From contig JADZAQ010000090.1 of assembly GCA_020852555.1 (NCBI GenBank), forward strand, positions 1 through 35,506: 35,506 bases of DNA. Direction: 5' to 3'. The notes under the pieces are model-generated. The model ran no database searches. It had not been told where the DNA came from and saw only the letters and a program-made list of their open reading frames with translations. A program made the translations under genes and the position numbers. Positions 1,351-35,295 of the stretch are shown piece by piece. This DNA comes from Burkholderiales bacterium (lineage in GTDB: Bacteria > Pseudomonadota > Gammaproteobacteria > Burkholderiales > Casimicrobiaceae). How positions within the stretch are numbered: the first letter of the stretch is position 1; each line of letters starts with the position of its first letter.

Positions 1351-1652
1351 ACGCGCCTCCGGCTGGCGCGCTGGCGTCGCGGCTGCTGCTCGAGTCGTGC
1401 GCGGTCGAGCAGCGAGAGCGACGGCGCGAGCACCGACGAGAGCTCGTGCAAGCGATCGAGCGCCCACAGCGCGTTGGCCCAGTGCTTGATGGCAACGGTG
1501 TCGGCACCCTGCTCCATGGCGCGTAGCGTCGGCACCGAGACACCGATGCGCTCGGCGAACACGCGCATCGGCTCGTCGCGTTCGATGCGCGCCTCGCGCA
1601 GGCGGCGGCCGAGGGAGGCGAGCGCGTCGGAAGATGCAGTGATGGAAATCAT
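1347..1652 (-). CDS. hipB: HipB-like XRE-family antitoxin and autorepressor
   Basis: A 101-residue protein with an N-terminal Cro/C1-type helix-turn-helix. The segment around residues 13-50 (LGRRLREARIERDEPMRVFA, then ERIGVSVPTLRAMEQG) has the usual pattern, with recognition helix near SVPTLRAME. The C-terminus is Arg-rich. HipB proteins bind HipA and repress their own promoter. The stop overlaps the hipA TTG start by four bases, so translation is probably coupled. The ATG at 1652 lies inside a perfect 14-base palindrome (1645-1658) and only about ten bases after the predicted transcription start, so the mRNA is nearly leaderless. The call rests on both domain and context. Confidence 0.85.
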   Translation of the reverse strand: MISITASSDALASLGRRLREARIERDEPMRVFAERIGVSVPTLRAMEQGADTVAIKHWANALWALDRLHELSSVLAPSLSLLDRARLEQQPRRQRASRRRV

Positions 1653-1781: not shown

Positions 1782-3113
1782 CTATGCCCCCTTCTCGGGG
1801 AACAACCCGGGCATCCAGCGGCTGGCAAGTGACGCCGGAAAGGCGAGGCGCAACGGTGCCCGCGTGCTGGCGGACGTGATCGCGCCGATGTCGATCAAGG
1901 CCGCAACCACCCGACGCGCGCTGCGTTCGCTGGCATCGACGATGGCGGCGGTGTCGGCGCGCAGCACCTCCCCGCGGTGGAGAATCGCATCGAGAATACG
2001 CTGCGACTTCGGCGGCAATCGCGAAAGACGCACCTCCTCGTCAGCCCAGATCAGGATGCGCATGCGCAGTTCGCGTGGCCGCATGAGGGATTCCATGAAA
2101 GAGACCTGGTCGAGGCAGGTGGCAAGGAAGTAGCGCGTGAACTCGGCGAGACTCTCTTCACTCAGGTTTCCGCGTCCATCGAGATCGTTGCGACGCGTGA
2201 GGTCGCATCGGGCGAGATGCTCTTTGTACGTGTCCGCGCTACGCGCGAGCCCGCGCGCCACCGACCATAGCGAACCCGTATCCAACGCCTCGCGCAGCGT
2301 CGCGTGCGACAGCAACCGCGCAACGCGGCCATTCCCGTCGACGAAGGGGTGGATCCACAGCAGACGGTGATGTGCTGCCGCTGCAGCCAGGATGGACTCG
2401 GTCTTGCCGAGGGAACCATAGACGGTTGCATAGCGCTGGAGGAAGCGCGGCACGGCAAGCGGGCTGATCGCGACGTGCGCGCCAACCTTGACGTCACGGT
2501 CTCGCAACGCACCGGGAATCACCTTGACGCGTTGCCTCGTCGCAGGATTCTCGACCCGAAGGAGGTCATCGGGGAGAAGCGCGCAAAACCGGCGATGGAT
2601 CTCGCGGATGGCGTCCACGCTCACCGTGCGGCCGGTGAGCGTGTCGCCGTCGATCCACTGCTGGACGGCGATGTGCGCCTTGGCTTCGAGTTGGAGGCTG
2701 CGCTGTCGAGCGTCGACGCTGTAGTCGTTCCGGAGCGCGCGCTCGATGTCCACAGGATGCGTGTCATGCCCCTCGATCAGGTTGCTGTAATAGCAATTCA
2801 TCGCGCGCACAAGGTCGGCGAGCGGAGTCAGCAGAGCCGCGGGGAGAGAATGCCGCAAGCCGGCGCTCGCTTGTGCCAGTTCGAGAACGAGGTCGGTCAA
2901 CGGCGTGCGATGGCGCGACTCCTGACCGATCAGCAGTGGCTCCATCCGGGACGTGGGCTCGCCGCGATCCTCCGCTGCATCGCTGTCCGGGGTCCTGGCC
3001 GGGTTCTTGGCCGGGCGCGCGACCGGCTTCCCGGGCGGTCTCGTGGCCGCCGATTTGGCCGGATGGGTGGCCCGTTCGGTGGCCGGTTGCTCGGGATGCG
3101 GATGACGGGCCAT
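1782..3113 (-). CDS. Fic-domain AMP-transferase with built-in inhibitory helix
   Basis: Fic enzymes usually transfer AMP from ATP to a hydroxyl of a target protein. The catalytic motif HPFVDGNGR is at residues 255-263 and is intact, with the catalytic His. Upstream, SNLIEG at 110-115 matches the (S/T)xxxE(G/N) inhibitory motif whose Glu blocks ATP binding. Its place N-terminal to the Fic core makes this a class II, self-inhibited enzyme. Residues from about 365 on (RILDAILHRGEVLRADTAAI and after) look like a winged helix, common in this subfamily. The first ~50 residues are Pro/Ala/Arg-rich and disordered. M57 (2945) is an alternative start; neither start has a clear ribosome binding site. 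The gene lies upstream of hipBA on the same strand. The target is unknown. Confidence 0.88.
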   Translation of the reverse strand: MARHPHPEQPATERATHPAKSAATRPPGKPVARPAKNPARTPDSDAAEDRGEPTSRMEPLLIGQESRHRTPLTDLVLELAQASAGLRHSLPAALLTPLADLVRAMNCYYSNLIEGHDTHPVDIERALRNDYSVDARQRSLQLEAKAHIAVQQWIDGDTLTGRTVSVDAIREIHRRFCALLPDDLLRVENPATRQRVKVIPGALRDRDVKVGAHVAISPLAVPRFLQRYATVYGSLGKTESILAAAAAHHRLLWIHPFVDGNGRVARLLSHATLREALDTGSLWSVARGLARSADTYKEHLARCDLTRRNDLDGRGNLSEESLAEFTRYFLATCLDQVSFMESLMRPRELRMRILIWADEEVRLSRLPPKSQRILDAILHRGEVLRADTAAIVDASERSARRVVAALIDIGAITSASTRAPLRLAFPASLASRWMPGLFPEKGA

Positions 3114-18331: not shown

Positions 18332-19687
18332 GTGAGTCGCCGGCGCCGCACCGCCCACCCGCCTTCGCCGCGCGTCGGCTTCGTCTCGCTCGGCTGCCCC
18401 AAGGCACTCGTCGACTCCGAGCGCATCCTCACCCAGTTGCGCGCCGAGGGCTACACGATCGCGCCCGACTACGGTGGCGCCGACCTGGTGGTCGTCAACA
18501 CCTGCGGCTTCATCGACGCCGCCGTCGCCGAATCGCTCGACGCGATCGGCGAAGCGCTCGCCGAGAACGGCAAGGTCATCGTCACCGGCTGCCTCGGCGC
18601 CCGCGAAGGCGGCGAATTCGTGCGCGAGGCGCACCCCCGGGTGCTCGCGGTCACCGGTCCGCACGCGACCGCCGAAGTGATGCACGCGGTGCACGCGCAC
18701 CTGCCGAAGCCGCACGATCCCTTCGTCGACCTCGTGCCGCCGCAGGGGATCAAGCTCACCCCGCGCCACTACGCGTACCTGAAGATCAGCGAGGGCTGCA
18801 ACCACCGCTGCACGTTCTGCATCATCCCGTCGCTGCGCGGCGATCTCGTCTCGCGGCCGTTGGGCGAAGTGATGCAGGAAGCGGAGAACCTCGTGCAGGC
18901 GGGCGTGCGGGAGCTGCTCGTCGTGTCGCAGGACACGAGCGCCTACGGTGTGGACGTGCGCTATCGCACGGGCTTCTGGCAGGGGCGGCCGGTGAAGACC
19001 CGGATGAAGGAACTCGTCGCCGCGTTGGGGAGCCTGGGCGCCTGGGTGCGGCTGCACTACGTGTACCCCTACCCGCACGTCGACGAGGTGCTCCCGCTCA
19101 TGGCCGACGGCAAGGTCCTGCCGTACCTCGACGTGCCGTTCCAGCACGCGAGCCCGCGCATCCTGAAGCTCATGAAGCGCCCGGCCAACGCCGAGAACAC
19201 GCTCGCCCGCATCCGCGCGTGGCGCGCGATCTGCCCCGAACTCACTCTCCGCTCGACGTTCATCGTCGGCTTTCCGGGCGAGACCGAAGCCGAATTCGAG
19301 GAACTCCTCGCCTTCCTCGAAGAAGCGCAGCTCGACCGCGTCGGCTGCTTCGCGTACTCGCCGGTGACCGGTGCCGCCGCCAATGCGCTGCCCGATCCGC
19401 TGCCTGAAGAAGTGCGCGAGGAGCGGCGCGCGCGCTTCATGGCGGTGCAGGCGCGGATCAGCGCCGCGCGGCTCGCGCGCAAGGTCGGCAGCACGCTCGA
19501 CGTGCTCGTCGACGAAGTGACCGGCGCGCGCGCCGTGGCTCGCTCGAAGGCGGATGCGCCCGAGATCGACGGCGTGGTGCACGTCACCGGCGCCGAGGGC
19601 CTGCGTGCCGGAACGTTCGCACGCGTCACCGTGACCGGCACCGACACTCACGACCTCAACGCCACTCTTTCCGGCCACTGCCCATGA
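18332..19687 (+). CDS. rimO: Ribosomal protein S12 methylthiotransferase RimO
   Basis: Radical-SAM enzyme that methylthiolates the conserved Asp of ribosomal protein S12. It has 451 residues, normal length, from a GTG at 18332 with a weak upstream site. The UPF0004 domain has Cys22 ([12 protein letters not shown]), Cys58 (VNTCGF) and Cys87 (VTGCLGA) for one 4Fe-4S cluster. The radical SAM motif CNHRCTFC places Cys at 156, 160 and 163. [22 protein letters not shown] and [17 protein letters not shown] follow, then a C-terminal TRAM domain. The stop overlaps the next gene's ATG by four bases, an unusual link to an efflux operon. Confidence 0.97.
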
Positions 19688-20844
19688 GCCTCTGCCGCCC
19701 GGGTCCGTACGCCCGCCTCGCCACCCTCGTTGCCGCTGTGCTCCTCGTCGCGGCGTGCAGCAAGGAAGCACCACCGCCGCCGCGGCCCGCCCCCGAGGTC
19801 GGCGTGCTCACCATCGAGCCGCAGACGATTCCGTACACGCCAAGCTTCGTCGCGCAGACCGAGAGCTCCCGCCAGGTCAACATCGTGGCGCGCGTGTCCG
19901 GCTTTCTCGACAGCATCGCCTACTCCGAAGGCGACCTCGTGAAGCAGGGCCAGCTCATGTTCAAGCTGGACCCGAAGCCCTTCCTCGCCCAGCTCAACGC
20001 CGCCAAGGGCGAGCTCCAGGCGCAGCAGGCGCGACTCGACACCGCCGAAGTCACGTATCAACGCGTGAAGCCGCTCGCCGATCAGGACGCGCTGCCGCAG
20101 ATGGACCTCGATCGCGCCAAGGGCGAGCGTGACGCCGCGCGCGCCGCCGTCTTCTCCGCGCAGGCCAAGGTGGAGGAAGCCACGCTGAATCTGGGCTACG
20201 CGACGATCACCTCGCCGGTGACCGGGGTCGCGAGCCGCTCGCTGCAGCGCCAGGGCGCGTACGTGAATGCGCTCGCCGACAGTGCGAACCTCACCTACGT
20301 GGCGGCGCTCGATCCGATCTGGGTGAACTTCAGCATCTCGCAGAACCAGATGGCGCACTTCCAGGAACTCGCCGAGAAGAAGCTCGTGGTGGCGCCCAAG
20401 GATGACAACTTCGACGTCGAGATCATCCTCCCCAACGGCACACCGTTCGCGAAGCGCGGCCAGATCGGCTTCGCCGATCCCTCGTTCAGTCCCGATACCG
20501 GCTCGTTCATGGTGCGCGCGGTGATCCCCAACCCGAAACAGGAGCTGCGGCCCGGAATGTTCGTGACCGCGCGGCTGCTGGGCGCCGTGCGGCCGGATGC
20601 CATCGTCGTTCCCCAGCTCGCCGTGCAACAGGGAAGCAACGGCCATGCGGTGTACGTGGTCAATGCGAGCGGCGTCGCCGAAGTGCGCCCGGTGATCGTC
20701 GGTGACTACGTCGGCGACAAGGACATCGTGATCCGCACCGGACTCGCCAAGGGTGATCGCCTGATCGTCGACGGCGTGATGCGCGTGGTGCCCGGACAGC
20801 CGGTGCGGGTCGCCGCGACGGCTTCCGACGCCAAGAAGAAGTAG
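19684..20844 (+). CDS. RND efflux periplasmic adaptor lipoprotein, system 1
   Basis: A membrane fusion protein of the AcrA/MexA type that links the inner-membrane pump to the outer-membrane channel. It has 386 residues; the ATG overlaps the rimO stop (ATGA). The lipobox LLVAAC puts lipid attachment at Cys25. Seen: the lipoyl half-motif [20 protein letters not shown] and [12 protein letters not shown], a helical hairpin around 95-165, the second half-motif [20 protein letters not shown], then [11 protein letters not shown] and the C-terminal barrel with [20 protein letters not shown]. The pump gene follows after three bases. Substrates are unknown; close relatives carry out multidrug efflux. 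Confidence 0.93.
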
Positions 20845-20847
20845 CCG

Positions 20848-23800
20848 ATGTTCACGCACTTCTTCATCGACCGGCCGATCCTGTCGTCGGTCATCTCGAT
20901 CCTGTTCGTGCTCGCCGGGCTGGTCGCGATGTCGGTCGCGCCGATCGAGCAGTACCCCGAGCTCGCCCCGCCGTCGGTGTCGATCTCGGCTTCCTACCCG
21001 GGCGCCACCGCCGAGGTGATCGCCAATCAGGTGGCTGCACCCATCGAGGCGCAGATCAACGGCGTCGACAACCTCCTCTACTTCTCGTCGACCTCCTCGT
21101 CGTCGGGCAGCGTGTCGATCCAGGCGGTGTTCGCGCCGGGGAGCGACCCCGACATCAACCAGGTGAACGTGCAGAACCGCGTCAACCAGGCGTTGGCGCA
21201 GTTGCCGCAGACGGTGACGCAGCAGGGGGTCACCGTGGAGAAGGTGTCGTCGGCAATCATGATGGTGCTGTCGGTCTACTCCAACGACGACCGCTACAGG
21301 TCGACCTACGTCGACAACTACACCAACCTCTACGTCCTCGACGAGTTGAAGCGCGTGCCGGGCGCCAACCGCGCCTCGGTGCTCGGCATGCCCGACATCG
21401 CGATGCGCGTGTGGCTGCAGCCCGATCGCATGGCGCAGCTCGGCATCACCGTGCGCGAGGTGGCGAACGCGCTGCAGAGCCAGAACCAGACTTTCGGCAT
21501 CGGCCAGATCGGCGGCCAGCCGGCGGTCCCCGGCACGCAGCAGACCTTCGTGATCACCGCGCAGGGGCTGCTCACCCGGCCCGAGGAATTCGAGGACGTG
21601 ATCATCCGTGCCGACAAGACCGGTGCGGCGACGGTGCGCCTGCGCGACATCGGCCGCGTCGAGCTCGACAAGCGCGACTACTCGGTGGTGAGCCGCATGA
21701 ACGGCAAGATCTCGACCACCATCGCGATCTATCAGCAGCCGGGGGCCAACGCGGTAGCCACCGCCAAGGCGGTGCGCGCGCGGCTGGCCGAGCTCAAACC
21801 GTCGTTTCCCACCGGGCTCGACTACCGCATCGCGCTCGATACCAGTCTCTTCACGCTCAATTCGATCGAGAAGGTCATCCACACGTTCTTCGAGGCGGTG
21901 GTGCTCGTCGTGCTCGTCGTCTTCGTGTTCCTGCAGTCGCTGCGCGCGACGGTGATCCCGATCCTCGCCGTGCCGGTGTCGATCATCGGGACGTTCGTGG
22001 GGATGCACCTGCTCGGTTTCTCGATCAACATGCTCACGCTCTTCGGCATGATCCTCGCCATCGGCCTCGTGGTCGACGACGCTATCGTGGTGGTGGAGAG
22101 CGTCGAGGCCAACATGGCGGAGCGCGGCATCGGACCGCTCGAAGCCGCCAAGCTCACGATGACGCAGATCGCCAGCGCGCTCATCTCGATCGTGCTGGTG
22201 CTGGTCGCGGTCTTCCTGCCGGTCGCGTTCCTGGGCGGTGTCACCGGCAAGCTCTACCAGCAATTCGCGGTGACGATCGCGATCTCGATGGTGATCTCCG
22301 GGATCATGGCGCTGACCCTCTCGCCGGCGCTCGCGGCGCTGATCCTCAAGGCGCAGCACGGGACGAAGGGCCGCTTCTTCCGCGCCTTCGAGCGCGGCTT
22401 CGAAGCGCTGCGCGACGGCTACCTCGGGGTGATCGCGCGGGCGCTGCGCGGCTGGCCGCTGGCGCTGGTCGCCTTCGCCGGCATCCTCGCCGGCGTCTGG
22501 TACATGTTCCACACGCTCCCATCGAGCTTCGTGCCCGAGGAGGATCAAGGCTACTTCTTCACGGCGATCGTGGCGCCCGACACGGCGAGCCTCGAGATCA
22601 CCACGGCGGTCACCCGACGGGTGCAGGAGATCGTATCCGCCGATCCCGCGGTGCAGGACGTGGCGTCGGTCGCGGGGTACAGCCTCCTCGACGGCCAGCT
22701 CGCCAACAACGGCGCGATCCTCTTCGTGTCGATGAAGCCCTTCGAGGTGCGCACCGACCCCTCGCTGCTGTCGTTTGCCGTGCTGCCCCGGCTCAACGCC
22801 AAATTGGGTGAGATCCGCGAGGCGTTCACGCTCGCCATCAATCCGCCGTCGATCCCCGGCATGGGCTCGATCGGCGGCTTCGAGTTCTACCTGCAAAGCC
22901 GCGGCAGCGGCGACCCCCGCGTGCTGGGCGCCGCGGTGAACGATTTCATCGCCAAGGCGCGCGCGCGCCCCGAACTGCAGGGGGTGTCGACGACGTACCG
23001 GCCGGCGACGCAGCAGCTCTTCGTCGATCTCGACCGCAGCAAGGCCGAGGTGCTCGGCGTGACGGTCTCGGAGGCGTTCGCCACCATGCAGGCGTTCTTC
23101 GGCTCGCAGGTCGTGGGCCAGTTCTCGCAGTTCTCGCGCGTATGGTGGGTGATCCTGCAGGCGGACGCCGACTACCGCATGCGCCCCTCCGACTTCGACA
23201 AGATCTTCGTGCGCTCGAAGTCCGGCGCCAACGTCCCGCTTTCCGCGCTCATCACCACGAAGTACGTAGCCTCGCCCAAGCTCGTCACGCGCTTCAACGG
23301 CTTCACCGCGGTGAAGATCACCGGTTCGCAGGCGCCCGGTTACAGCTCGGGGCAGGCGCTCGCGGCGATGGAAGCGGTCGCGCGCGAACTTCCCGGCGAC
23401 TTCTCGTACGCGTGGGCGGGACAGGCGCTGCAGGAGAAGCAGTCGGGCAGCACGTCGAGCTCCGCGTTCATCTTCGGCCTGATCCTGGTGTTCCTGCTGC
23501 TGGCGGCGCAGTTCGAGAAGTGGACGCTGCCGATCGCCGTGGTGCTCACGATTCCGGTCGCGGTGCTCGGCGCGCTGCTCCTCACCTGGGCGGTGGGACT
23601 CGAAAACGACGTCTACTTCCAGGTGGGACTCGTCACGCTGGTCGGACTCTCGGCCAAGAACGCGATCCTCATCTGCGAGGTCGCGATCGAGCACGTGCGC
23701 GAAGGCATGCCACCGCGCGAGGCGGCGCTTACCGCGGCCAAAGCACGATTGCGCGCAATCGTCATGACCTCGCTCGCCTTCGGATTCGGCTGCGTGCCGC

Positions 23801-24021
23801 TGGCGATCGCCACCGGTGCCGGCGCCAACAGCCTGCGCGCGATCGGCACCGGCGTGATCGGCGGCATCCTGGCATCGATGCTGGTGGCGGTGATCTTCGC
23901 GCCGCTCTTCTTCTTCCTGCTGGAGTCGCTGTCGCAACGGGTCGCGCGCCGCGGCGCGGCCGTATCCGCGACGGCATCCACCGAGGCGGCGGCGCCGACC
24001 CCGGCGAGCGAGGGCCATTGA
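20848..24021 (+). CDS. RND multidrug efflux pump (HAE-1 family), system 1
   Basis: A 1057-residue inner-membrane proton-driven pump related to AcrB/MexB. The N-terminus MFTHFFIDRPILSSVISILF is helix 1. Proton-relay Asp410-Asp411 lie in GLVVDDAIVVVES (helix 4) and Lys937 in LSAKNAILICEVAIE (helix 10), all intact. Also seen: QYPELAPPSVSISASYPGAT, SSSGSVSIQAVFAPGSDPDI, the FVPEEDQGYFF signature, the porter-domain segments, and FGFGCVPLAIATGAGANSLR. Twelve membrane helices and two large periplasmic loops are present. The gene is preceded by its adaptor and followed after two bases by its outer-membrane factor. Substrate range is not predictable from sequence. Confidence 0.95.
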   Translation: MFTHFFIDRPILSSVISILFVLAGLVAMSVAPIEQYPELAPPSVSISASYPGATAEVIANQVAAPIEAQINGVDNLLYFSSTSSSSGSVSIQAVFAPGSDPDINQVNVQNRVNQALAQLPQTVTQQGVTVEKVSSAIMMVLSVYSNDDRYRSTYVDNYTNLYVLDELKRVPGANRASVLGMPDIAMRVWLQPDRMAQLGITVREVANALQSQNQTFGIGQIGGQPAVPGTQQTFVITAQGLLTRPEEFEDVIIRADKTGAATVRLRDIGRVELDKRDYSVVSRMNGKISTTIAIYQQPGANAVATAKAVRARLAELKPSFPTGLDYRIALDTSLFTLNSIEKVIHTFFEAVVLVVLVVFVFLQSLRATVIPILAVPVSIIGTFVGMHLLGFSINMLTLFGMILAIGLVVDDAIVVVESVEANMAERGIGPLEAAKLTMTQIASALISIVLVLVAVFLPVAFLGGVTGKLYQQFAVTIAISMVISGIMALTLSPALAALILKAQHGTKGRFFRAFERGFEALRDGYLGVIARALRGWPLALVAFAGILAGVWYMFHTLPSSFVPEEDQGYFFTAIVAPDTASLEITTAVTRRVQEIVSADPAVQDVASVAGYSLLDGQLANNGAILFVSMKPFEVRTDPSLLSFAVLPRLNAKLGEIREAFTLAINPPSIPGMGSIGGFEFYLQSRGSGDPRVLGAAVNDFIAKARARPELQGVSTTYRPATQQLFVDLDRSKAEVLGVTVSEAFATMQAFFGSQVVGQFSQFSRVWWVILQADADYRMRPSDFDKIFVRSKSGANVPLSALITTKYVASPKLVTRFNGFTAVKITGSQAPGYSSGQALAAMEAVARELPGDFSYAWAGQALQEKQSGSTSSSAFIFGLILVFLLLAAQFEKWTLPIAVVLTIPVAVLGALLLTWAVGLENDVYFQVGLVTLVGLSAKNAILICEVAIEHVREGMPPREAALTAAKARLRAIVMTSLAFGFGCVPLAIATGAGANSLRAIGTGVIGGILASMLVAVIFAPLFFFLLESLSQRVARRGAAVSATASTEAAAPTPASEGH

Positions 24022-24023
24022 CC

Positions 24024-25490
24024 ATGTACCGGGTGCGCCGCATCGTGATCGTGGTACTCGGCACCGCGCTCGGCGCCTGCACCGTCGGCCCCGACTACGT
24101 GCAGCCAGCCGTCGAGGCGCCGCCGGCGTGGCGCATCAGCTACGACACCGCTGCGGACGTCGCCAATACGCGCTGGTGGGAGCGTTTCGGCGATCCGGTG
24201 CTGACCGACCTCGTCGACTCGGCGCTGCGCGAGAACCGCGACCTCGTGATTGCCGCGGCGCGCGTCGATGCCTTCATCGGACAGCTCCAGTCCACGCGCG
24301 CGCAGTACTACCCGCAGGCGAACTACAGCCTCGAGGCGAGCCGCAACCGCACCACGCGCGTGGGAGCTTCGCCGTTGCCGGAAGGCGCGGACCCCTACTA
24401 TTCGCTCTACCAGGGATCGCTGAGCGCCGGGTGGCAACTCGACCTCTTCGGTCGCGTGCGGCGGCAAACCGAAGCCGCGCAGGCGCGGGTGTACGCCACC
24501 GAGCAAGGGCGGCGCGGGGTGGTGCTGTCGGTGGTGACGAGCATCGCCGCGAGCTACATCGGTCTGCGCGCCCTCGACAAGCAACTCGAGGTCTCGCAGC
24601 ACACCGCGCAGAACAATGCCAATACGCTGCGCATCTTCGAGCTGCGACACAAGGGCGGCGTCGTCTCGCGCCTCGAACTCGAGCAGGTGCAGTCGCAGTA
24701 CCAGCAGGCGCTGGCGGCGATCCCCGCGCTCGAACAGCGCATCGCCGCGCAGGAGAACCTGATCGCCACGCTGCAAGGCCGCAATCCGTATCCGATCCCG
24801 CGCGGCAAGGCGATCGACGAACTCGTGCTGCCGCCGATTCCCGCCGATCTGCCGGCCTCGCTCCTCACCCGCCGGCCGGATCTCCTGCAAGCCGAGCAGG
24901 ACATGATCGCGACCAACGCCGACGTCGGCGCCGCCGTCGCGCTCTACTACCCGCAGATCAACCTCACCGCCTCGCTGGGCTCGGTGAGCGCCGCGCTCGG
25001 CAACTTCCTCAGCGGACCGGCATCGGTATGGGCGCTGGCCGCCGGCTTCGGCGGGCCGCTCTTCACCGGCGGTGCCATCCAGGGACAGGTCGCCGCCGCC
25101 GAGGCCAACTCGGCGGGGGCGGTCGCCGCGTACCAGCAGACCGTCCTCATCGCCTTTCGCGAAACCAACGACGCGCTCGTCGGCACGATCAAGAAGCGCA
25201 GCGAGGCCGCGGCGCAGGCGAAGCGGGTCGCGTCGCTGCGCGAGTACGCGCGGCTGTCGCGGGTGCGCTTCAACAACGGCTACGCGAGCTACCTCGAGGT
25301 GCTCTACGCCGAGAACGAGCTCTTTGCCGCCGAACTCGCCGCGGTCCAGGCGTATGCCGACGGCTACACGCAGCTCGTCGCCGTGTACCGCGCGATGGGC
25401 GGCGGCTGGATCGACCTCGCCGATGCCGCGACGGCCGCGGGGGCGGCGCCGCCGGTACGGGAGCGCGCCGCGAAGCAGCCGTTGTTCTAG
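24024..25490 (+). CDS. NodT-type outer-membrane efflux lipoprotein, system 1
   Basis: A TolC-like channel component anchored by lipid. It has 488 residues from ATG 24024, two bases past the pump stop. The lipobox LGAC gives Cys19, followed by TVGPDYVQP, the standard start of this family. Two outer-membrane-efflux repeats are visible: one with WWERFGDPVLTDLVDSALREN and WQLDLFGRVRRQTEAAQARV, and one with LLTRRPDLLQAEQDMIATNA then VGAAVALYYPQINLTASLG. GGPLFTGGAIQGQVAAAEA and FNNGYASYLEVLYAENELF complete the pattern. The frame is open far upstream within the pump gene, but that part is not protein-like for this family. Confidence 0.94.
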   Translation: MYRVRRIVIVVLGTALGACTVGPDYVQPAVEAPPAWRISYDTAADVANTRWWERFGDPVLTDLVDSALRENRDLVIAAARVDAFIGQLQSTRAQYYPQANYSLEASRNRTTRVGASPLPEGADPYYSLYQGSLSAGWQLDLFGRVRRQTEAAQARVYATEQGRRGVVLSVVTSIAASYIGLRALDKQLEVSQHTAQNNANTLRIFELRHKGGVVSRLELEQVQSQYQQALAAIPALEQRIAAQENLIATLQGRNPYPIPRGKAIDELVLPPIPADLPASLLTRRPDLLQAEQDMIATNADVGAAVALYYPQINLTASLGSVSAALGNFLSGPASVWALAAGFGGPLFTGGAIQGQVAAAEANSAGAVAAYQQTVLIAFRETNDALVGTIKKRSEAAAQAKRVASLREYARLSRVRFNNGYASYLEVLYAENELFAAELAAVQAYADGYTQLVAVYRAMGGGWIDLADAATAAGAAPPVRERAAKQPLF

Positions 25491-26173: not shown

Positions 26174-27396
26174 TGGAAGTCCTCCTGCTCGGCATCTATT
26201 CGTTCTTCGTCTGGCTCGTCTTCATCAAGTTCAAGTGGCTGCCGTGGAACATCTATTCGCAGGTCACCGTCGTCGTCATTCCGATCGTCGCCCTGACCGC
26301 GCTCATCCTCGCGCTCAACGTGTTCGCACCCTCGTCGTCCGACCTGCGGGTGTTTCGCTACACGGTGCCGATCGTGTCGCAGGTGCGGGGGCGGGTGATC
26401 GAGGTCGCGGTGGAGGAAGGCAACCGCCCGGTCAAGAAAGGTGACGTCCTCTTTCGCATCGACCCGGCGCCGTTCCAGCAGCAGGTCAATACCCTCAAGG
26501 CGCAGCTCGCCAACGCCATCGCGGGACAGAAGGAAGTCGAGGAGCAGTTGAAAGGCGCGGAGGCAAAGATCGACGAGGCGCGCGGCAGCATCGCGCAGGC
26601 GACGGCGCGCATCGCCGAGGTGAACGCCAAGGTGGCCCTCGCGGAGAAGCGGGTCGCGCAATACCGCGAGCTCGCAGCGACCGGCGCTGGCAGCAAGTTC
26701 GACCTCGAGCAGGCCGAGACGAGTCTCGCCGAGCTGACCGGACAATTGGCCTCCGCGCGCAGCGCCGAGGCGCAGGCGCGCGCCGCCGAGGGGCAGGCGG
26801 TCGCCGGCCGCGCGCAGGTGCTGCAGAAACTCGCGGCGAAGAGCGGCGGCGAGTATGCGAACGTCGCGCAGATCCGCGCGCAGCTCGACAACGCCGAATG
26901 GGACCTCGATCAGACGACGACGCGTTCACCCTGCGATTGCTACGTCGTGAACCTGCAACTGCGGCCCGGGGGCTTCGTCGCTGCGCTGCCGGTGGCGCCG
27001 GTGATGACGCTCGTCGAGACCACCGGCAGCGTGGTCGCGCTCTTCGCGCAGAACGAGTTGCACCAGGTCGCGCCCGGCAACGAGGCAGAGTTCGCGCTGC
27101 AGACGCTGCCCGGCAAGGTCCTCAAGGGGACCGTGGATTCGGTGGTCTGGGCGTCGGGCGCGGGGCAACTCTCGCCGAGCGGCTCGGTGCCGATGACCGG
27201 CGTGCTGACGGCACCGGCGCAGCGCTTCGCGGTGAAGTTCGACGTCGCCGAGCGCGACCAGGGCCAGTTTCTCGCCGCGGGTGCGGCCGGCGCGGCGGCG
27301 ATCTACACCGAGCATGGGGCGATGATCCACATCATCCGCAAGGTGATCCTGCGCGTCGGGTCGTACCTCAACTTCCTGGTGCTCAAGCTGCACTGA
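26173..27396 (+). CDS. HlyD-family membrane fusion protein (YiaV-like)
   Basis: A 407-residue adaptor with two N-terminal hydrophobic segments (about 4-19 and 31-52), unlike the single anchor of most HlyD proteins but like YiaV. GGAGGA lies eight bases before the ATG, which overlaps the DUF3302 stop by one base. Seen: first lipoyl half VRGRVIEVAVEEGNRPVKKG with FRIDPAPFQQQV, a long Ala/Glu/Gln-rich coiled coil (about 105-240), second lipoyl half TTTRSPCDCYVVNLQLRPGG, and a C-terminal beta barrel. The NAEWDLDQTTTRSP signature is intact. The partner pump is not obvious; the module contains only DUF3302, this adaptor and an outer-membrane factor. Confidence 0.88.
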   Translation: MEVLLLGIYSFFVWLVFIKFKWLPWNIYSQVTVVVIPIVALTALILALNVFAPSSSDLRVFRYTVPIVSQVRGRVIEVAVEEGNRPVKKGDVLFRIDPAPFQQQVNTLKAQLANAIAGQKEVEEQLKGAEAKIDEARGSIAQATARIAEVNAKVALAEKRVAQYRELAATGAGSKFDLEQAETSLAELTGQLASARSAEAQARAAEGQAVAGRAQVLQKLAAKSGGEYANVAQIRAQLDNAEWDLDQTTTRSPCDCYVVNLQLRPGGFVAALPVAPVMTLVETTGSVVALFAQNELHQVAPGNEAEFALQTLPGKVLKGTVDSVVWASGAGQLSPSGSVPMTGVLTAPAQRFAVKFDVAERDQGQFLAAGAAGAAAIYTEHGAMIHIIRKVILRVGSYLNFLVLKLH

Positions 27397-27401
27397 CCGC
27401 C

Positions 27402-28823
27402 ATGCGCATGCGGCATTGCGCGTTGCTCCTGGGCGTGGCGGCACTCGCCGGGTGCGCTCTCAAGGATCCGCTTCGCCACGAGGATACGGTGGCGCAGGCG
27501 CTGCCCAACGTAGCGCTGCCGGCGCAGTATGCCGCCGGCGGCCTTGCCGCGCCGATCAGCGACGACTGGCTCGCGGCCTTGCGCGACCCCGCGCTCGCCG
27601 CGCTGGTGGCCGAGGCCATCGCGTACAACCCGGACCTCAAGGTCGCCGCGGCGCGCGTCGACCAGGCCGCGGCCTACCTCGCAGGCGCCAAGTCACCGCT
27701 GTGGCCGCAGGTGAGCCTGGTGGCCCGCGGTGGCGGCAAGATGAGCGGCGATGCGACGGGCCTCCAGGGCGTGGGTCTCTTCGCGTCGTGGGAGATCGAC
27801 CTGTGGGGCCGCGTGCGCGCGACGGCGCGCGCGACCGAACTCCAGTACGAATCCACGCAGCTCGAGGCCGAGTACGCGCGGCAATCACTCGCGGCACTGG
27901 TGGCCAAGGCGTGGATCACGGCCATCGAGGCGCGGCTGCAGATGGCGCAGGCCGCGGACATGCTGCGCGCCGCCGTCCAGCTCGCCGGACTCGCGCGCGA
28001 TCGGCAGCGCGTCGGCATCGGCAACGAATACGACGTCGCGCTCGCGCAGGCCAACGTCGAGACGCTGCGCGACAGCGTGCGCAGCCTCGAACTTGCGTAC
28101 GGGAACGCGCTGCGCGCGCTGGAAACGCTCGCCGGCCGCTATCCCGCGGCGGCCGTCGAGGTGGCGGCAGCACTCCCCGCGTGGCCGGGCGAATTGCCGA
28201 CCGGCGTCCCCGCGGAGCTCCTCGAGCGGCGCCCCGACGTGGTCGCCGCCGAGCGGCGGGTGGCGGCGGCGTTCTACCGCGTCGAGGAGGCCAAGGCCGC
28301 GCGCCTGCCGCGCATCACGCTGGTCGCCAACCTGACCTCGATCTCGTCCGAGCTCTTCGTGCTGCAGAGTCGGAACAACCCGGTGGTGAGCTTCGGCGCG
28401 GGACTGGTGCAGCCGCTCTTCCTCGGCGGGCTCCTGCAGTCGCAGGTCGACGCCCGCACCGCGGAGCAGCAGGCGGCGATCGCCGAGTACGGCAAGGTCG
28501 GCGCACGCGTCTTCGGCGAGGTCGAGAATGCGCTCGCCGCCACCGCGGCGGCGGCCGACCGCGAGACGATCCTCGTGCGCTCGGTGCAGGAGAACGCGCG
28601 TGCGCTCGAACTCGCCAACATCCGCTACCGCGTGGGGTCCGCCGACCTGCGCGCGGTGCAGCAGCAGCAGCTCGACCTCACGTCGGCGCGGGCGGCGTTG
28701 CTGCGCGTGCGCGCCGATCGCCTGGTGCAGCGCGTCAACCTGCACCTGGCGCTCGGCGGCAGCTTCGACGCGCAGCCGGTGGCGATCGTCGGCCGCCGTG
28801 CACCTGCCGCAAGGTCACCCTAA
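27402..28823 (+). CDS. NodT-type outer-membrane efflux lipoprotein of the DUF3302-HlyD module
   Basis: A 473-residue TolC-like lipoprotein starting at ATG 27402 (a second ATG is at 27408), five bases after the HlyD stop. The lipobox LAGC gives Cys18. It differs from the other two OMFs here: no TVGPDY after the Cys but ALKDPLRHEDTVAQ. Seen: DWLAALRDPALAALVAEAIA, SWEIDLWGRVRATARATELQ, LLERRPDVVAAERRVAAAFY, and GLVQPLFLGGLLQSQVDART. Both efflux repeats are present. Its position makes it the exit duct for the HlyD adaptor before it. It is followed by a good promoter for the next operon, so it likely ends this one. Confidence 0.92.
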   Translation: MRMRHCALLLGVAALAGCALKDPLRHEDTVAQALPNVALPAQYAAGGLAAPISDDWLAALRDPALAALVAEAIAYNPDLKVAAARVDQAAAYLAGAKSPLWPQVSLVARGGGKMSGDATGLQGVGLFASWEIDLWGRVRATARATELQYESTQLEAEYARQSLAALVAKAWITAIEARLQMAQAADMLRAAVQLAGLARDRQRVGIGNEYDVALAQANVETLRDSVRSLELAYGNALRALETLAGRYPAAAVEVAAALPAWPGELPTGVPAELLERRPDVVAAERRVAAAFYRVEEAKAARLPRITLVANLTSISSELFVLQSRNNPVVSFGAGLVQPLFLGGLLQSQVDARTAEQQAAIAEYGKVGARVFGEVENALAATAAAADRETILVRSVQENARALELANIRYRVGSADLRAVQQQQLDLTSARAALLRVRADRLVQRVNLHLALGGSFDAQPVAIVGRRAPAARSP

Positions 28824-28960: not shown

Positions 28961-30508
28961 ATGAAGCCATCGCCCCTCCGGCCGCGCCATCCTGCGCTAC
29001 GCGTCGTCGTGCCCACGCTGGCGGCGCTCCTGCTCGTCGCCGGCTGCGGCCGGGAGGCGCCGAAACCGCCCGCGAAGGGTCCCGCCGAGGTGTCGGTCGA
29101 GATCATCAAGCGGCAGGACGTCCCGGTCACCGCCGTCTACGTCGCGCAGACGCAAAGCTCGCAGGCGGTGAACATCCAGGCGCGGGTGGCGGGCTGGCTC
29201 GACCGGCGGACTTACGTCGAAGGCGCGGTGGTCAAGCGCGGCCAGGTGCTCTTCCAGATGGACCCGAAGCCCTTCCAGGCGCAGCTCGACGCCGCGAAGG
29301 CCGCGCTGCAACGCAATCAGGCGGCGCTGCAGGTGGCCACCGCCAACCTCAACCGGACCAAGCCGCTCGCGCAGCAGAATGCACTGTCGCAGAAGGATCT
29401 CGACGACGCCACGGGACAGTACGAGCAGGCCGGCGCCGCCGTGGAACAGGCGCGCGCGCAGGTCACGCAGGCCGAGCTCAACCTTTCGTACACCACGATC
29501 CGCTCGCCGGTCGACGGGGTGTCGAGCTTTGCCGTGGTCGCCGACGGCACCTATCTGTCCCCCACCAATTCGCAGCTCACCACGGTTTCGGTGCTCACCC
29601 CGATGTGGATCAATTTCAGCGTCTCGGAAAACGAGATGGAGCGCATCCGCAACGAGGTCCGCGCCGGCCGCCTGCGCCTGCCCGAGGGCGGGCGCTTCGT
29701 GGTCGAGATCGAGATGGTCGACGGCAACCTTTTCCCATACACGGGCGCGATCACCTTCGCCGATCCCTCGTACAACGCGACCACCGGTACCTTCATGCTG
29801 CGCGCGACGGTCGACAACCCCACCGGCGTGCTGCGTCCCAACCAGTACGTGCGGGTGCGCCTGAACGGCGCCACGCGCCCCAATGCCATCGTCGTCCCGC
29901 AGCGCGCCGTGCAACAGAGCGCCAAGGGCCATTTCGTGTGGGTCGCTGATGCCGGCGGCAAGGCCGAGTTGCGCCCCGTCGTGGTCGGTGACTGGAAGGG
30001 TGAGGGCTGGCTCGTGAGCGATGGACTCCACGACGGCGATCGCGTCGTCGTCGACGGTGGCATCCGGCTCGCCGAAGGTGCCCCGGTCAAGGCGACCCCT
30101 TACGTGCCGCCGGCGCCGCGAGCCCCGGTCGGCCGCGCGGCGGGCGGTGCGGCGGCGGCGGGAACGCCGCTGCCGGCACCCTATCCCGCGGCGACACCCT
30201 CCGCGGTATCGGTCTACTTCCCGAGCGGCACGGCGGTGCTCGATACCGGCGCCCAGCGCACGCTGCGCCTCGCCGCCGCGGCTTACGTCGGCATCGGCTC
30301 CAAGATCATCGTCACCGGCTACGCCGACCGCACCGGCACCGCGCAGGGCAACGTCGAACTGGCGAAGAAGCGCGCGCAGGCGGTACGCGACGAGCTCGTG
30401 AGTCTCGGCATCGAGACACGGCGCATCGAGCTCGCACCGCCGGCGAACGCCACCGGCACGGGTACCGACGACCAGGCCCGCCGCGTCGACCTGCGCGTGC
30501 AGCAGTAG
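28961..30508 (+). CDS. RND periplasmic adaptor fused to an OmpA-like domain, system 2
   Basis: A 515-residue lipoprotein (typical adaptors have 370-400). LLVAGC gives lipid anchor Cys29. Residues 40-390 are a normal AcrA-like adaptor: ARVAGWLDRRTYVEGAVVKR, FQMDPKPFQAQLDAAKAALQ, helical hairpin, LSYTTIRSPVDGVSSFAVVA, WINFSVSENEMERI, and IVVPQRAVQQSAKGHFVWVA. A Pro/Ala/Gly linker (about 385-413) leads to an OmpA-like domain (414-515): SAVSVYFPSGTAVLDTGAQR, TGYADRTGTAQGNVELAKKR and AQAVRDELVSLGIETRRIEL. This keeps the Asp and Arg that in OmpA domains bind the diaminopimelate of peptidoglycan. There is no stop or frameshift between the parts, so this is a true fusion. Start at ATG 28961; the upstream frame is a shadow. 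Confidence 0.93.
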   Translation: MKPSPLRPRHPALRVVVPTLAALLLVAGCGREAPKPPAKGPAEVSVEIIKRQDVPVTAVYVAQTQSSQAVNIQARVAGWLDRRTYVEGAVVKRGQVLFQMDPKPFQAQLDAAKAALQRNQAALQVATANLNRTKPLAQQNALSQKDLDDATGQYEQAGAAVEQARAQVTQAELNLSYTTIRSPVDGVSSFAVVADGTYLSPTNSQLTTVSVLTPMWINFSVSENEMERIRNEVRAGRLRLPEGGRFVVEIEMVDGNLFPYTGAITFADPSYNATTGTFMLRATVDNPTGVLRPNQYVRVRLNGATRPNAIVVPQRAVQQSAKGHFVWVADAGGKAELRPVVVGDWKGEGWLVSDGLHDGDRVVVDGGIRLAEGAPVKATPYVPPAPRAPVGRAAGGAAAAGTPLPAPYPAATPSAVSVYFPSGTAVLDTGAQRTLRLAAAAYVGIGSKIIVTGYADRTGTAQGNVELAKKRAQAVRDELVSLGIETRRIELAPPANATGTGTDDQARRVDLRVQQ

Positions 30509-30515
30509 GGCGGCG

Positions 30516-33500
30516 ATGCTGTCGCGCTTCTTCATCGAGCGACCGGTCTTCGCGGCCGTCGTCGCGCTCATCATCGTTCTCGCCGGCGTCGTGTCGATGA
30601 CGCAGCTGCCGGTCGCGCAGTATCCGTCGATCACCCCGGTGCAGGTAACCGTGAGCGCCACCTATCCGGGTGCCGACTCGCGCACGCTCGCCGATTCGGT
30701 GGCGGCGCCGATCGAGCAGCAGATCAACGGCGTGGACAAGATGCTGTACATGACGTCGACGTCGAGCTCGACCGGCCAGCTCACGATGACGATCTACTTC
30801 TCGCTCGACACCGATCCCGACATCGCGCAGGTGCAGGTGCAAAACCGGGTGAACCTCGCGCTGCCGCAACTGCCGTCGGCGGTCGTCCAGCAGGGCGTGA
30901 ACGTGCAGAAGAAGTCGTCGTCGATCATGATGCTGGTGGCGATCTACGCGAAGGACAGTCGCTACGGCGCCAACTACATCGCCAACTACGCGAACGTCTA
31001 CGTCCTGGAGGCGCTGAAGCGCGTCAACGGCGCCGGCCAGGCGCAGATCATGGGGGTGCCGAACCAGGCGATGCGCATCTGGATGAATCCCGACCGCATG
31101 GCGTCGCTCGGCATCACGACCTCCGACATCGCCAACGCGATCAACCAGCAGAACCAGCTCTTCGGCGCCGGACAGATCGGCCAGCAGCCCAACGCGGGGC
31201 CGGTGGAGCTCACCTTTCCGGTCGTCACCCAGCCGCAGTACACCGACCCGCGGCAGTACGAGAACATCATCCTGCGCGCATCGCAGGATGGCAGCGCGAT
31301 CGTGCGCGTCGGCGACGTCGCGCGCGCCGAGATCGGGCTCCAGCAGTACATCGTCGACAGCCAGATGAACGGCACGCCGGCGACGATCATCGCCGTCTAC
31401 CAGCAGCCGGGCGCCAACGGCCTCGCCGTCTCGCAAGCGGTACGCGCCACGCTCGCGCAGATGAAGGACAAGTTTCCGGACGGGATGGAGTACGTGGTGG
31501 CGCTCGACACCAACGACTTCGTGCGCCTGTCGATCAAGGAGGTGATCAAGACGCTCTTCGAGGCGATCGCGCTGGTCGTCCTCGTCGTGTACCTCTTCCT
31601 GCAGAGCTTCCGCACCACGATCATCTGCTCGGTCGCGATCGTCATCGCGCTCGTCGCCACCTTCACCGGGATGCTGGCGCTCGGCTTCTCGATCAACCTG
31701 CTCACGCTGTTCGGACTGGTGCTCGCCATCGGCATGGTGGTCGACGATGCCATCGTCGTGGTCGAGAACGTGGAGCGCAACATGCAGCAGCACCACCTCG
31801 AGCCCCGGCCGGCGACGATCCGCGCGATGGGCGAGATCGCGAGCTCGCTCGTCGCGGTGGTGCTGGTGATGTGCTCGGTGTTCATTCCGGCGGCGTTCCT
31901 GCCGGGAACCACCGGCCAGCTCTACAAGCAGTTCGCGATCACCATCGTCATCTCGGTGTCGGTGTCGGGATTCATCGCCCTCACCGTGACGCCGGCGATG
32001 TGCGCGGCGCTGCTCAAGCACAACCCGCCGCCGGCGCGGGGGCCGTTCGCGTGGTTCAACCGGCAGGTGGATCGGGTTACCGCGGCGTTCGGCGCCGCGG
32101 TGGCCTACGTCATCAAGTACGCAGCGGTCGCGCTCGTCCTGCTCGCCGTCTTCCTGTATTCGATCTACCACCTCTTCACGGTGCTGCCGACGAGCTTCGT
32201 GCCGAATGAGGATCAGGGCTATGCCTTCGCCGCGATCATCATGCCGCAGGCAGCGAGCCTCGCACGGGCGCAGGCGATCGCCGATCGGGCCGATGCGATC
32301 TTCAAGGAGATCCCGGGCGTCAAGACGCGTACCGTGGTCACCGGCTACAGCCTCCTCGACAGCGGCTTCAAGACCAACGCCGCGACGATCTTCGTGACGC
32401 TGGACGATTTCGACAAGCGCTACGCCGACCTCGCGACGACGAAGGCGCAGAATGCCCGCGCGATCCTGCAGGCGTTCTATGCGAAGGCGAGCCAGATCGA
32501 GGAAGCCATCGTGGTGCCGATCGCACCGCCGGCGATTCCCGGCATCGGCACCACCGGCGGCTTCGAGTTCTGGATCCAGGACACCGGCACCGGCGACCCG
32601 GTGGCGCTCGGCGCCGTGCTGCAGGACTTCCTCAAGGCAGCGCGGCAGCGGCCCGAGCTTACCGGCCTCGCGACGACGTATTCGGCGTCGACGCAGCAGC
32701 TCAAGGCCGAGGTCGATCGCGAGAAGGCGCAGCTCCTCGGCGTGCCGATCCAGGACGTGTACAGCGCCATTCAGGCGCAGTTCGGCTCGCTCGCGGTGAG
32801 CCAGTACAACCTGTTCTCGAACGTGTGGTGGGTGATCCTGCAATCGGATGCGCCGTACCGGCAGACCCCGGACGACCTGACGCGTCTGTACACGCGCAAT
32901 GCCCAGGGCCAGATGGTGCCGCTTTCCGCGCTGGTCTCCACGCGCTGGACATCGGGCCCCGACGTCCTGCCGCACTTCAACGGCTTCGCCGCGGCGAAGA
33001 TCAACGGCAACGCGGCGGCGGGCTACAGCTCGGGCGATGCGATCAGGACCATGGAGGACGTCGCGAAGCAGGTGCTCCCGCCCGGCTACGCGGTCGGCTG
33101 GTCGGGGCTCGCCTTCGAGGAGAAGCAATCGGGCGGCACCTCGGGGCTCGCCTTCGTATTCGGCTTCGTCATCGTCTTCCTGGTGCTGGCCGCGCAGTAC
33201 GAGTCCTGGACGCTGCCCGGCGCGGTGATGTCGGCGGTACCGTTCGGCATCCTGGGTGCGCTGCTCACCAATCACCTGCGCGGGCTCGACAACGACGTCT
33301 ACTTCCAGATCGGCCTCCTGGTGCTCATCGGTCTCGGCGCCAAGAACGCGGTGCTGCGCGTCTCGGCGGCAATCGACTTTCGCAAGCAGGGCAAGTCGAT
33401 CATGGAGGCGACGATCCTCGCCGGCGAGCAGCGCCTGCGGCCGATCATCATGACCTCGCTCGCCTTTGCCGTGGGCTGCCTGCCGTTGGCGCTCGCGGTC

Positions 33501-33767
33501 GGCGCCGGCGCCAATGCGCGGCACTCGATCGGCACCGGCATCATCGGCGGCATGTTGGGCGAGACGACGCTCGCCATGCTCTACGTGCCGCTCCTCTTCT
33601 ATCTCTTCGATCGCATGCAGGAGGGCAAGGAAGGGAAGCGGCATGGTGACGAGGCGACGCACGCCACCGCGGCCGCGGGGCGCGGTGGGGATGCGTCTGC
33701 CGAGGCGGGCGGCGCACCCGGCAGCGATCCAGCGCCGCCGCACGACGGGCCCCGCTCCGATGCGTGA
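30516..33767 (+). CDS. RND multidrug efflux pump (HAE-1 family), system 2
   Basis: A 1083-residue AcrB-like proton-driven pump, seven bases after its adaptor. Helix 1 is in MLSRFFIERPVFAAVVALII. Proton-relay Asp410-Asp411 lie in GMVVDDAIVVVEN and Lys943 in GLGAKNAVL. FVPNEDQGYAFA and PAIPGIGTTGGFEFWIQD are usual. Odd: after the Lys motif the sequence is LRVSAAIDF where most relatives have LIVEFA, placing Arg948 and Ser950 at positions usually Ile and Glu in helix 10; there is no sign of a frameshift. A hydrophilic tail of about 45 residues (Gly/Ala/His/Asp-rich) follows the last helix. Its last codons overlap an alternative start of the next gene. Confidence 0.95.
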   Translation: MLSRFFIERPVFAAVVALIIVLAGVVSMTQLPVAQYPSITPVQVTVSATYPGADSRTLADSVAAPIEQQINGVDKMLYMTSTSSSTGQLTMTIYFSLDTDPDIAQVQVQNRVNLALPQLPSAVVQQGVNVQKKSSSIMMLVAIYAKDSRYGANYIANYANVYVLEALKRVNGAGQAQIMGVPNQAMRIWMNPDRMASLGITTSDIANAINQQNQLFGAGQIGQQPNAGPVELTFPVVTQPQYTDPRQYENIILRASQDGSAIVRVGDVARAEIGLQQYIVDSQMNGTPATIIAVYQQPGANGLAVSQAVRATLAQMKDKFPDGMEYVVALDTNDFVRLSIKEVIKTLFEAIALVVLVVYLFLQSFRTTIICSVAIVIALVATFTGMLALGFSINLLTLFGLVLAIGMVVDDAIVVVENVERNMQQHHLEPRPATIRAMGEIASSLVAVVLVMCSVFIPAAFLPGTTGQLYKQFAITIVISVSVSGFIALTVTPAMCAALLKHNPPPARGPFAWFNRQVDRVTAAFGAAVAYVIKYAAVALVLLAVFLYSIYHLFTVLPTSFVPNEDQGYAFAAIIMPQAASLARAQAIADRADAIFKEIPGVKTRTVVTGYSLLDSGFKTNAATIFVTLDDFDKRYADLATTKAQNARAILQAFYAKASQIEEAIVVPIAPPAIPGIGTTGGFEFWIQDTGTGDPVALGAVLQDFLKAARQRPELTGLATTYSASTQQLKAEVDREKAQLLGVPIQDVYSAIQAQFGSLAVSQYNLFSNVWWVILQSDAPYRQTPDDLTRLYTRNAQGQMVPLSALVSTRWTSGPDVLPHFNGFAAAKINGNAAAGYSSGDAIRTMEDVAKQVLPPGYAVGWSGLAFEEKQSGGTSGLAFVFGFVIVFLVLAAQYESWTLPGAVMSAVPFGILGALLTNHLRGLDNDVYFQIGLLVLIGLGAKNAVLRVSAAIDFRKQGKSIMEATILAGEQRLRPIIMTSLAFAVGCLPLALAVGAGANARHSIGTGIIGGMLGETTLAMLYVPLLFYLFDRMQEGKEGKRHGDEATHATAAAGRGGDASAEAGGAPGSDPAPPHDGPRSDA

Positions 33768-33831
33768 GCGCGCGCCATTGACGCCGCGCTTGCGCGACGC
33801 GCGAAGCACGCCGCCAGGCGTCCACGTGGAC

Positions 33832-35295
33832 ATGCGGCGCGTCGTCGCGGCGCTCACCGTCCCGCTCGCCCTCGCCGGCTGCACCGTCGGCCCCGACTAC
33901 GCGCGACCGGCAATCGAGACCCCAGCCTCGTTCCTCTATGCGCCGAAGGATGCGGCCGCCACGGTCAACCTCCGCTGGTGGCAGCAGTTCGGCGACCCCG
34001 TCCTCGACGCGCTCATTGCCGAGGCGCTCGCCCACAACCAGAGCGTGAAGGTGGCCGCCGGCAACGTCGAGCAGGCCGCCGGCATCCTCACCCAGACGCG
34101 CTCGGCGGCGTTCCCGCAGGTGGGCTACAACGCGAGCGCCGGCCGCGCGCGCAGCAGCGAAGCGGGGGTGGCGCCCGAACTCGCCGGGCGCCTGCCCAAT
34201 CCGCAGAGCGCGTACCAGGCGCTCCTCTCGGCGAGCTGGGAGCTCGACCTGTGGGGCCGCATCCGCCGCCTCTCCGAATCCGCGCGGGCGAACCTGCTCG
34301 CCACCGACGAGGCACGCAAGGGCGTGATTCTCTCGCTCGTCGCGGGTGTGGCGTCCAATTACCTCACGCTGCGCGGGCTCGACCAGGAGCTCGTCATCGC
34401 GCGACAGACACTCGCTGCCTACGGCGAGTCGCTGCGCCTGTTCGAGCTGCAGTTCCAGTACGGCCAGATCTCGCAGATGAACGTCGCGCAGGTGCGCTCG
34501 CAGTACGAGACCGCCGCCGCGCAGATCCCGCAGATCGAGCTGCAGATCGCGCAGACCGAGCTCGCGCTCTGCGTGCTCGTCGGTCGCGATCCGGGTCCGG
34601 TCGCCCGCGGCAAGTCGATCTACGAGCTCGGGCTGCCGGCGGTCCCCGCGGGCGTGCCCTCGGAGCTTTTGACCCGGCGACCCGATCTCGTGCAGGCCGA
34701 GAACCAGCTGATCGCCGCCAATGCGCAGATCGGCGCGGCGCGCGCGCTGTACTTTCCGACGATCTCGCTCACCGCGGGCGGCGGCAGCGCCAGCGCCGCA
34801 CTCGCCGATCTCTTCACCGGCCCGGCGCGCGTGTGGAGCTACGCGGGCACCCTCGTCGGACCCATCTTCACCTTCGGCGCGGTGAGCGGCCAGGTCGCAC
34901 AGGCCGAAGGCGCGCGCGAGGCGATGCTCGCCAATTACCGCTACGCGATCCAGAACGCGTTCTCCGAGGTCGATACCGCGCTCGTCACCGGCCAGAAAGT
35001 GCAGGCGCAGCTCGTCGCGCAGGAGCGCCTCGTCGCCGCGCTCAAGGACTACGCGCGGCTCGCGCACCTGCAATACGACGGCGGTTACACCTCGTACACC
35101 ACCGTGCTGCAGGCCGAGCAGCAGCTCTTCCCGGCGGAGCTCAGCCTCGCCGCGGTGCGCGCGGCGACGTTCAGCTCGAGCGTCGCGATCTACAAAGCGA
35201 TGGGCGGCGGCTGGGTGATCGAGGCGGCGCAGATGACCGGCGACACGGCCGCGCCGCCCGCGACGCGCGATCGCGGCCTGCCGTCGCCGTTCTGA
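33832..35295 (+). CDS. NodT-type outer-membrane efflux lipoprotein, system 2
   Basis: A 487-residue TolC-like lipoprotein. I chose ATG 33832 because it gives a clean lipoprotein signal, MRRVVAALTVPLALAGC (Cys17), then TVGPDYARP. An in-frame ATG at 33760 overlaps the pump stop and would add 24 residues; it cannot be excluded. Seen: LRWWQQFGDPVLDALIAEAL, SWELDLWGRIRRLSESARAN, LLTRRPDLVQAENQLIAANA, GPIFTFGAVSGQVAQAEGAR, and YDGGYTSYTTVLQAEQQLFP. It resembles the system 1 OMF more closely than the middle one. Last gene of the block; it converges on an unidentified gene. Confidence 0.94.
   Translation: MRRVVAALTVPLALAGCTVGPDYARPAIETPASFLYAPKDAAATVNLRWWQQFGDPVLDALIAEALAHNQSVKVAAGNVEQAAGILTQTRSAAFPQVGYNASAGRARSSEAGVAPELAGRLPNPQSAYQALLSASWELDLWGRIRRLSESARANLLATDEARKGVILSLVAGVASNYLTLRGLDQELVIARQTLAAYGESLRLFELQFQYGQISQMNVAQVRSQYETAAAQIPQIELQIAQTELALCVLVGRDPGPVARGKSIYELGLPAVPAGVPSELLTRRPDLVQAENQLIAANAQIGAARALYFPTISLTAGGGSASAALADLFTGPARVWSYAGTLVGPIFTFGAVSGQVAQAEGAREAMLANYRYAIQNAFSEVDTALVTGQKVQAQLVAQERLVAALKDYARLAHLQYDGGYTSYTTVLQAEQQLFPAELSLAAVRAATFSSSVAIYKAMGGGWVIEAAQMTGDTAAPPATRDRGLPSPF

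Follow-up and report, generated by a model that had tools for sequence, protein, structure and literature searches.

A periplasmic adaptor of an RND efflux pump is fused, within one gene, to an OmpA-like domain in the stretch of DNA analysed here (35,506 nucleotides, contig JADZAQ010000090.1 of an uncultured Burkholderiales bacterium of the family Casimicrobiaceae; hereafter the window). The fusion is a real, rare and recurrent variant of a well-known kind of protein. Sequence comparison and structure prediction together make it probable that the product is an inner-membrane RND adaptor with an added, mobile OmpA-like tail, and that this tail is a transferable module by which inner-membrane complexes, here an RND pump, would be anchored to peptidoglycan.

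The fusion gene and its operon

The gene occupies positions 28961–30508 of the forward strand as a single unbroken frame, with an ATG start at 28961, a stop codon ending at 30508 and no internal stops in its 515 codons. The translated product matched the NCBIfam profile RND_mfp (TIGR01730) at residues 44–378 (E = 6.5e-80; 268.5 bits against a cut-off of 94.9) and the Pfam profiles HlyD_D23 at residues 63–297 (E = 4.7e-17) and OmpA (PF00691) at residues 419–491 (E = 1.3e-12; 48.3 bits against a gathering score of 27.2), the last match covering profile positions 1–76 of 98. The preliminary description of this DNA, which had placed the gene at these positions and read it as a complete AcrA-like adaptor followed in frame by a C-terminal OmpA-like domain with the conserved Asp and Arg, was therefore right; the two residues are D456 and R471. 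Its remark that standard adaptors end after the barrel has to be corrected, since they end after the membrane-proximal domain. The features of the gene, its operon and the neighbouring RND system (system 1) are as follows:

28961..30508, + strand: RND periplasmic adaptor ending in an OmpA-like domain, 515 aa (open reading frame, TIGR01730, PF00691)
28961..29047, + strand: signal peptide and lipobox LLVAGC, with predicted lipidated Cys C29 (sequence)
29090..30094, + strand: adaptor core, residues 44–378, with membrane-proximal, barrel, lipoyl and alpha-hairpin parts (TIGR01730, AcrA, AlphaFold2)
Residues 103–138 and 144–176: hairpin helices of the adaptor core
30101..30202, + strand: Ala/Pro-rich disordered linker, residues about 381–414 (pLDDT <50 at 386–413)
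30203..30505, + strand: OmpA-like domain, residues 415–515 (PF00691, E = 1.3e-12; fold match Z 13–15)
30326..30328, + strand: codon of D456, equivalent to Asp271 of A. baumannii OmpA (alignment)
30371..30373, + strand: codon of R471, equivalent to Arg286 of A. baumannii OmpA (alignment)
30476..30484, + strand: A506-R507-R508 motif in place of the usual NRR, marking the tail subfamily
30516..33767, + strand: RND permease partner, 1083 aa (ACR_tran, 1035 bits)
33763..35295, + strand: outer-membrane factor, probably encoded as the third subunit in the fusion operon, start codon uncertain (OEP, E = 4.2e-46)
19684..20844, + strand: system 1 adaptor, 386 aa, without OmpA domain
20848..24021, + strand: system 1 permease
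24042..25490, + strand: outer-membrane factor following system 1, start codon uncertain (OEP, E = 8.5e-43)

C29 is nearly invariant in the homologue alignment. Relatives show the same succession of adaptor, permease and outer-membrane factor genes, and an RND permease lies downstream of the fused adaptor gene at every locus whose downstream DNA was checked. As had been stated before, the adaptor of system 1 lacks the OmpA domain: a PF00691 search of the product of 19684–20844 gave no match. A second species of the genus (L130) has kept the tandem of unfused system 1 and fused system 2, and in a genome of another genus (G004) fused and unfused adaptors lie about 6 kb apart.

Three outer-membrane factor genes are found inside 12 kb of the window (24042–25490, 27501–28823 and 33763–35295). 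The middle one sits after an HlyD-type gene (about 26182–27396) and a DUF3302 frame; it lies upstream of the fusion (at about 27.5–28.8 kb) and may belong to this HlyD-type/DUF3302 unit. At the start of the window, a gene for a HipA-like kinase (106–1467, reverse strand) adjoins a Fic/DOC family gene (1782–3113, reverse strand).

Fold and candidate peptidoglycan site

The fusion protein was modelled with AlphaFold2 using 22 aligned sequences, and a single-sequence AlphaFold2 model (mean pLDDT 42.6) was set aside. The pLDDT was mostly 85–96 in the adaptor and mostly 75–95 in the OmpA part (residues 415–515), and fell below 50 in the linker (386–413). Because the best 50 Foldseek matches of the model were adaptors only, the OmpA part was judged by a second structure alignment, which matched the predicted C-terminal domain to solved domains of the OmpA/Pal/OprF type with Z 13–15 and an rmsd of mostly 2.0–3.0 Å. 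These included A. baumannii OmpA in complex with a stem peptide (3td5; Z 13.3), Pal (Z 13.5) and OprF (Z 13.4); the peptidoglycan-binding domain of TagL from type VI secretion gave Z 12.5–12.6. By both the model and the alignment, the OmpA part is predicted to have the binding fold.

The counterparts of D456 and R471 in A. baumannii OmpA are Asp271 and Arg286, for which PMC5974059 cites a role in binding diaminopimelate. Among the 17 fused adaptors that we collected (see below), the Asp is present in 16 tails and the Arg in all 17, and an Asn is almost invariant too. Two tails are degenerate and provide natural controls for the binding site: in L012 (1060–2583) the Asp is replaced by Glu (ASAER), and in L068 (1489–3057) the Asn and a portion of the loop are missing. 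At the C-terminus, the window protein has ARRVD rather than the canonical NRRVE, which is usual in such domains, not required; nearly the whole tail subfamily has this ARR-type end (ARRVD/E). Judging from the fold and the two residues, the function of the tail is most likely tethering to peptidoglycan.

The fusion protein shares its lipobox, domain order, hairpin, and permease and outer-membrane factor partners with adaptors of the AcrA/MexA/TMexC type, and its core is 34% identical to AcrA (202 bits). Unlike the fusion, the solved adaptors that it matched stop before the OmpA domain, with alignments reaching no further than residue 392, and in AcrA it is the core itself that makes the peptidoglycan contact (PMC6570770). 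The tail has the fold and the Asp and Arg of the diaminopimelate site in common with Pal, OprF and the C-terminal domain of OmpA, but it is carried by an inner-membrane adaptor, ends in ARRVD/E rather than NRRVE, and falls on a separate tree branch. OmpA-like domains also fix envelope machines to the wall in TagL (type VI secretion) and MotB/MotY (flagellar stator). The window tail resembles TagL in fold, at the Z scores given above, and MotY in sequence, but these proteins belong to other machines and other OmpA subfamilies.

Distribution of the fusion

A total of 17 fused adaptor genes, all with the same order of parts, were found in about 15 genomes. This is far above chance, since all 17 genes share that order. 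The set consists of the window gene, loci from genome contigs (L009, L010, L011, L012, L016, L018 and L019), L066, L068, L072, L073 and L074, two extra copies in genome G043 (L128 and L129), and two loci from other families of the order (L135 and L136). In all, G043 has three fused adaptors (L012, L128 and L129) from two lineages of adaptor, and the end of the contig truncates L129. L136 (G254:C328) has a TAA stop inside the adaptor part, reflecting either a broken gene or an assembly error.

Of the 64 genomes of the GTDB family, at least 10 carry the fusion. In the sample of the order it was found in 4 of 399 genomes (G000, G044, G093 and G254) with only the top few candidates of each genome scored, and a profile spanning the adaptor end, linker and OmpA domain found it in 3 of 300, corresponding to about 1% of genomes. 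One locus is labelled Gammaproteobacteria (L016) and another Thiobacillus (L019), and because of these labels the fusion may extend beyond the family. When the fusion protein was searched against 369 class genomes and 398 phylum genomes, no additional fused protein turned up among the best few candidates of each genome, a procedure that distant adaptors with other OmpA types could escape. The spanning profile found nothing beyond the window's own fusion in 299 phylum genomes, and none of 1780 plasmid records with a matching adaptor covered 80% of the fusion protein query. The samples of order, class, phylum and plasmids rule out that the fusion is a common adaptor architecture, and the contrast with standard adaptors drawn in the preliminary description is upheld.

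Related tails on other inner-membrane proteins

A tail profile, built with this genome's single pyrophosphatase tail among its sequences, was searched against 150 genomes of the order. The scores fell in two groups, the upper of which represents a subfamily separate from ordinary OmpA domains. With a profile made from adaptor tails alone, the pyrophosphatase tail scored about 93 bits, compared to 31–45 for the ordinary OmpA domains of the genome. All subfamily tails were placed on one branch of the tail tree, apart from OmpA, Pal and MotB-like domains (support 95/89).

The subfamily tail ends several kinds of protein. It is found on membrane proton pyrophosphatases (L127 from this genome, L146, L151, L153, L160 and L161), where L127:1390–3843 (G000:C264, about 17.4–19.8 kb) has a similar Ala/Pro linker before its OmpA-like end; on subunit II of cytochrome c oxidase, in forms that have a cytochrome c domain (L145, L147, L149, L155, L198, L199, L207 and L208, from other genomes of the order); on the photosynthetic reaction-centre cytochrome (PF02276; L158, 430–1800, and L159); on a DUF937 protein with a membrane helix (L148, 697–1800); and on small single-TM proteins of the order. 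Several inner-membrane energy machines that are unrelated to one another carry a closely related tail, which thus has the appearance of a reusable, transferable anchor for inner-membrane complexes in this order.

An OmpA-like tail on the pyrophosphatases of this group was noted in a 2024 PeerJ review, which left its role open (PMC11210485); no mention of efflux adaptors was found in it. These Burkholderiales pyrophosphatases, with one copy in this genome, have the same tail subfamily as the window adaptor, but there the carrier is a proton pump rather than an efflux adaptor. Literature searches for an adaptor–OmpA fusion and for cytochrome oxidase with OmpA, whose coverage excluded most subscription journals, returned no paper on either subject. 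In the searchable literature, the tail shared across these complexes appears to be unrecognised so far as one family.

Gain, loss and selection

On a tree of 104 adaptors, calculated with the tail columns left out, the fused state requires eight changes, at least six of which are forced by well-supported branches. Two unfused adaptors (L013 and L014) are 68% identical to the window adaptor and lie near it on the tree. Together, these changes and the unfused near relatives indicate that the tail is easily gained or lost. Pairwise NG86 estimates, which are rough at these distances, gave dN/dS of 0.31–0.51 for the tails, consistent with purifying selection, and 0.10–0.27 for the adaptor part, which is under stronger constraint. 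The tail is dispensable, because it evolves faster than the adaptor and is absent from close relatives. The adaptor tails do not form one clade on the tail tree; a single clade was not rejected (p-AU 0.43). Four unfused adaptors from other lineages (L026, L030, L032 and L035) have long Pro/Ala/Lys ends without a domain, resembling an empty linker.

Proposed anchoring and alternative explanations

In the proposed mechanism, the adaptor would link the permease (30516–33767) to the outer-membrane channel, while the flexible linker would leave the membrane-proximal end of the adaptor and carry the OmpA-like domain into the periplasm. There, D456 and R471 would most likely grip diaminopimelate in the stem peptides of peptidoglycan and so anchor the pump to the wall. 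AcrAB-TolC contains six adaptors per pump, and with the same number here there could be up to six anchors. By analogy, anchoring is favoured by E. coli AcrA, which touches peptidoglycan in a contact proposed to stabilise the AcrAB subcomplex (PMC6570770). The sharing of the tail subfamily with other inner-membrane complexes also argues for it, as do the domain matches and predicted fold, the retention of the Asp and Arg, the purifying selection on the tail and the RND permease downstream of the fused loci that were checked. The preliminary description had suggested either fixing the pump in place or helping it through the peptidoglycan. The latter is weakened by the tails on pyrophosphatase, cytochrome oxidase and reaction-centre cytochrome: none of these complexes crosses the wall, and general anchoring or positioning therefore fits better than a pump-specific passage.

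The main weak point of the anchor is the reach of the shorter linkers. From AcrA, we take the tail to originate at the membrane-proximal end of the adaptor, opposite to the peptidoglycan contact, so that the linker must bridge roughly the length of the adaptor, which we estimate at ≈100 Å. Linkers range from 20 to 91 residues across the homologues. Assuming 3.6 Å per residue, the 35-residue window linker would reach about 126 Å and those of 86–91 residues far beyond that, while the 20-residue linkers of L016, L018 and L019 would reach at most about 72 Å. The latter are perhaps too short if, as in E. coli, it is the tip of the hairpin that meets the peptidoglycan, and these forms would thus need a nearer wall or a different target. 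The degenerate sites of L012 and L068, the altered NRRVE motif, and the faster evolution and dispensability of the tail also count against anchoring.

Instead of peptidoglycan, the target of the tail might be a common protein partner or the like tails of other complexes, in which case the tail would cluster inner-membrane complexes. This would account for the split of the subfamily from ordinary OmpA, Pal and MotB domains, its own ARRVE end, the linkers that seem short for reaching the wall, and the predominance of proton-coupled or electron-transfer complexes among the carriers. Nevertheless, it is an unlikely explanation: the Asn and both residues of the diaminopimelate site hardly vary, a degree of conservation that a protein–protein site would not call for, and the top fold matches include domains solved with bound peptidoglycan pieces. 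A related proposal, that the tail is a common wall anchor or docking tag for proton-coupled complexes (proton pyrophosphatase, cytochrome c oxidase, reaction-centre cytochrome and RND pump), grouping producers and users of the proton-motive force in wall-linked zones, is similarly unlikely.

Somewhat less likely still, the tail may be an evolutionary passenger with weak or residual affinity for the wall and little effect on efflux. Its repeated gain or loss, the selection that is relaxed relative to the adaptor, and the degenerate tails would be expected of a passenger; a dN/dS well below 1, the retention of D and R in almost every copy, and the repeated attachment of the tail to several complexes would not. 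The source assembly is fragmented (282 contigs), and two adjacent genes might in principle have been read as one through a frame or assembly artefact. This explanation is refuted, with hardly any probability left to it, because the fusion was found independently in many separate assemblies, at a constant place in the operon and with an in-frame linker of varied length.

Significance

It is an open question in the field how RND pumps get past the peptidoglycan layer and make use of it. A natural adaptor with a domain of the wall-binding type, together with close relatives that lack it, offers a ready experiment on how anchoring relates to pump assembly, mobility and output. An anchor function of the fused adaptor is plausible, and would be part of a larger pattern across complexes: the presence of the same kind of tail on other complexes suggests a general route for fixing inner-membrane machines in these bacteria.
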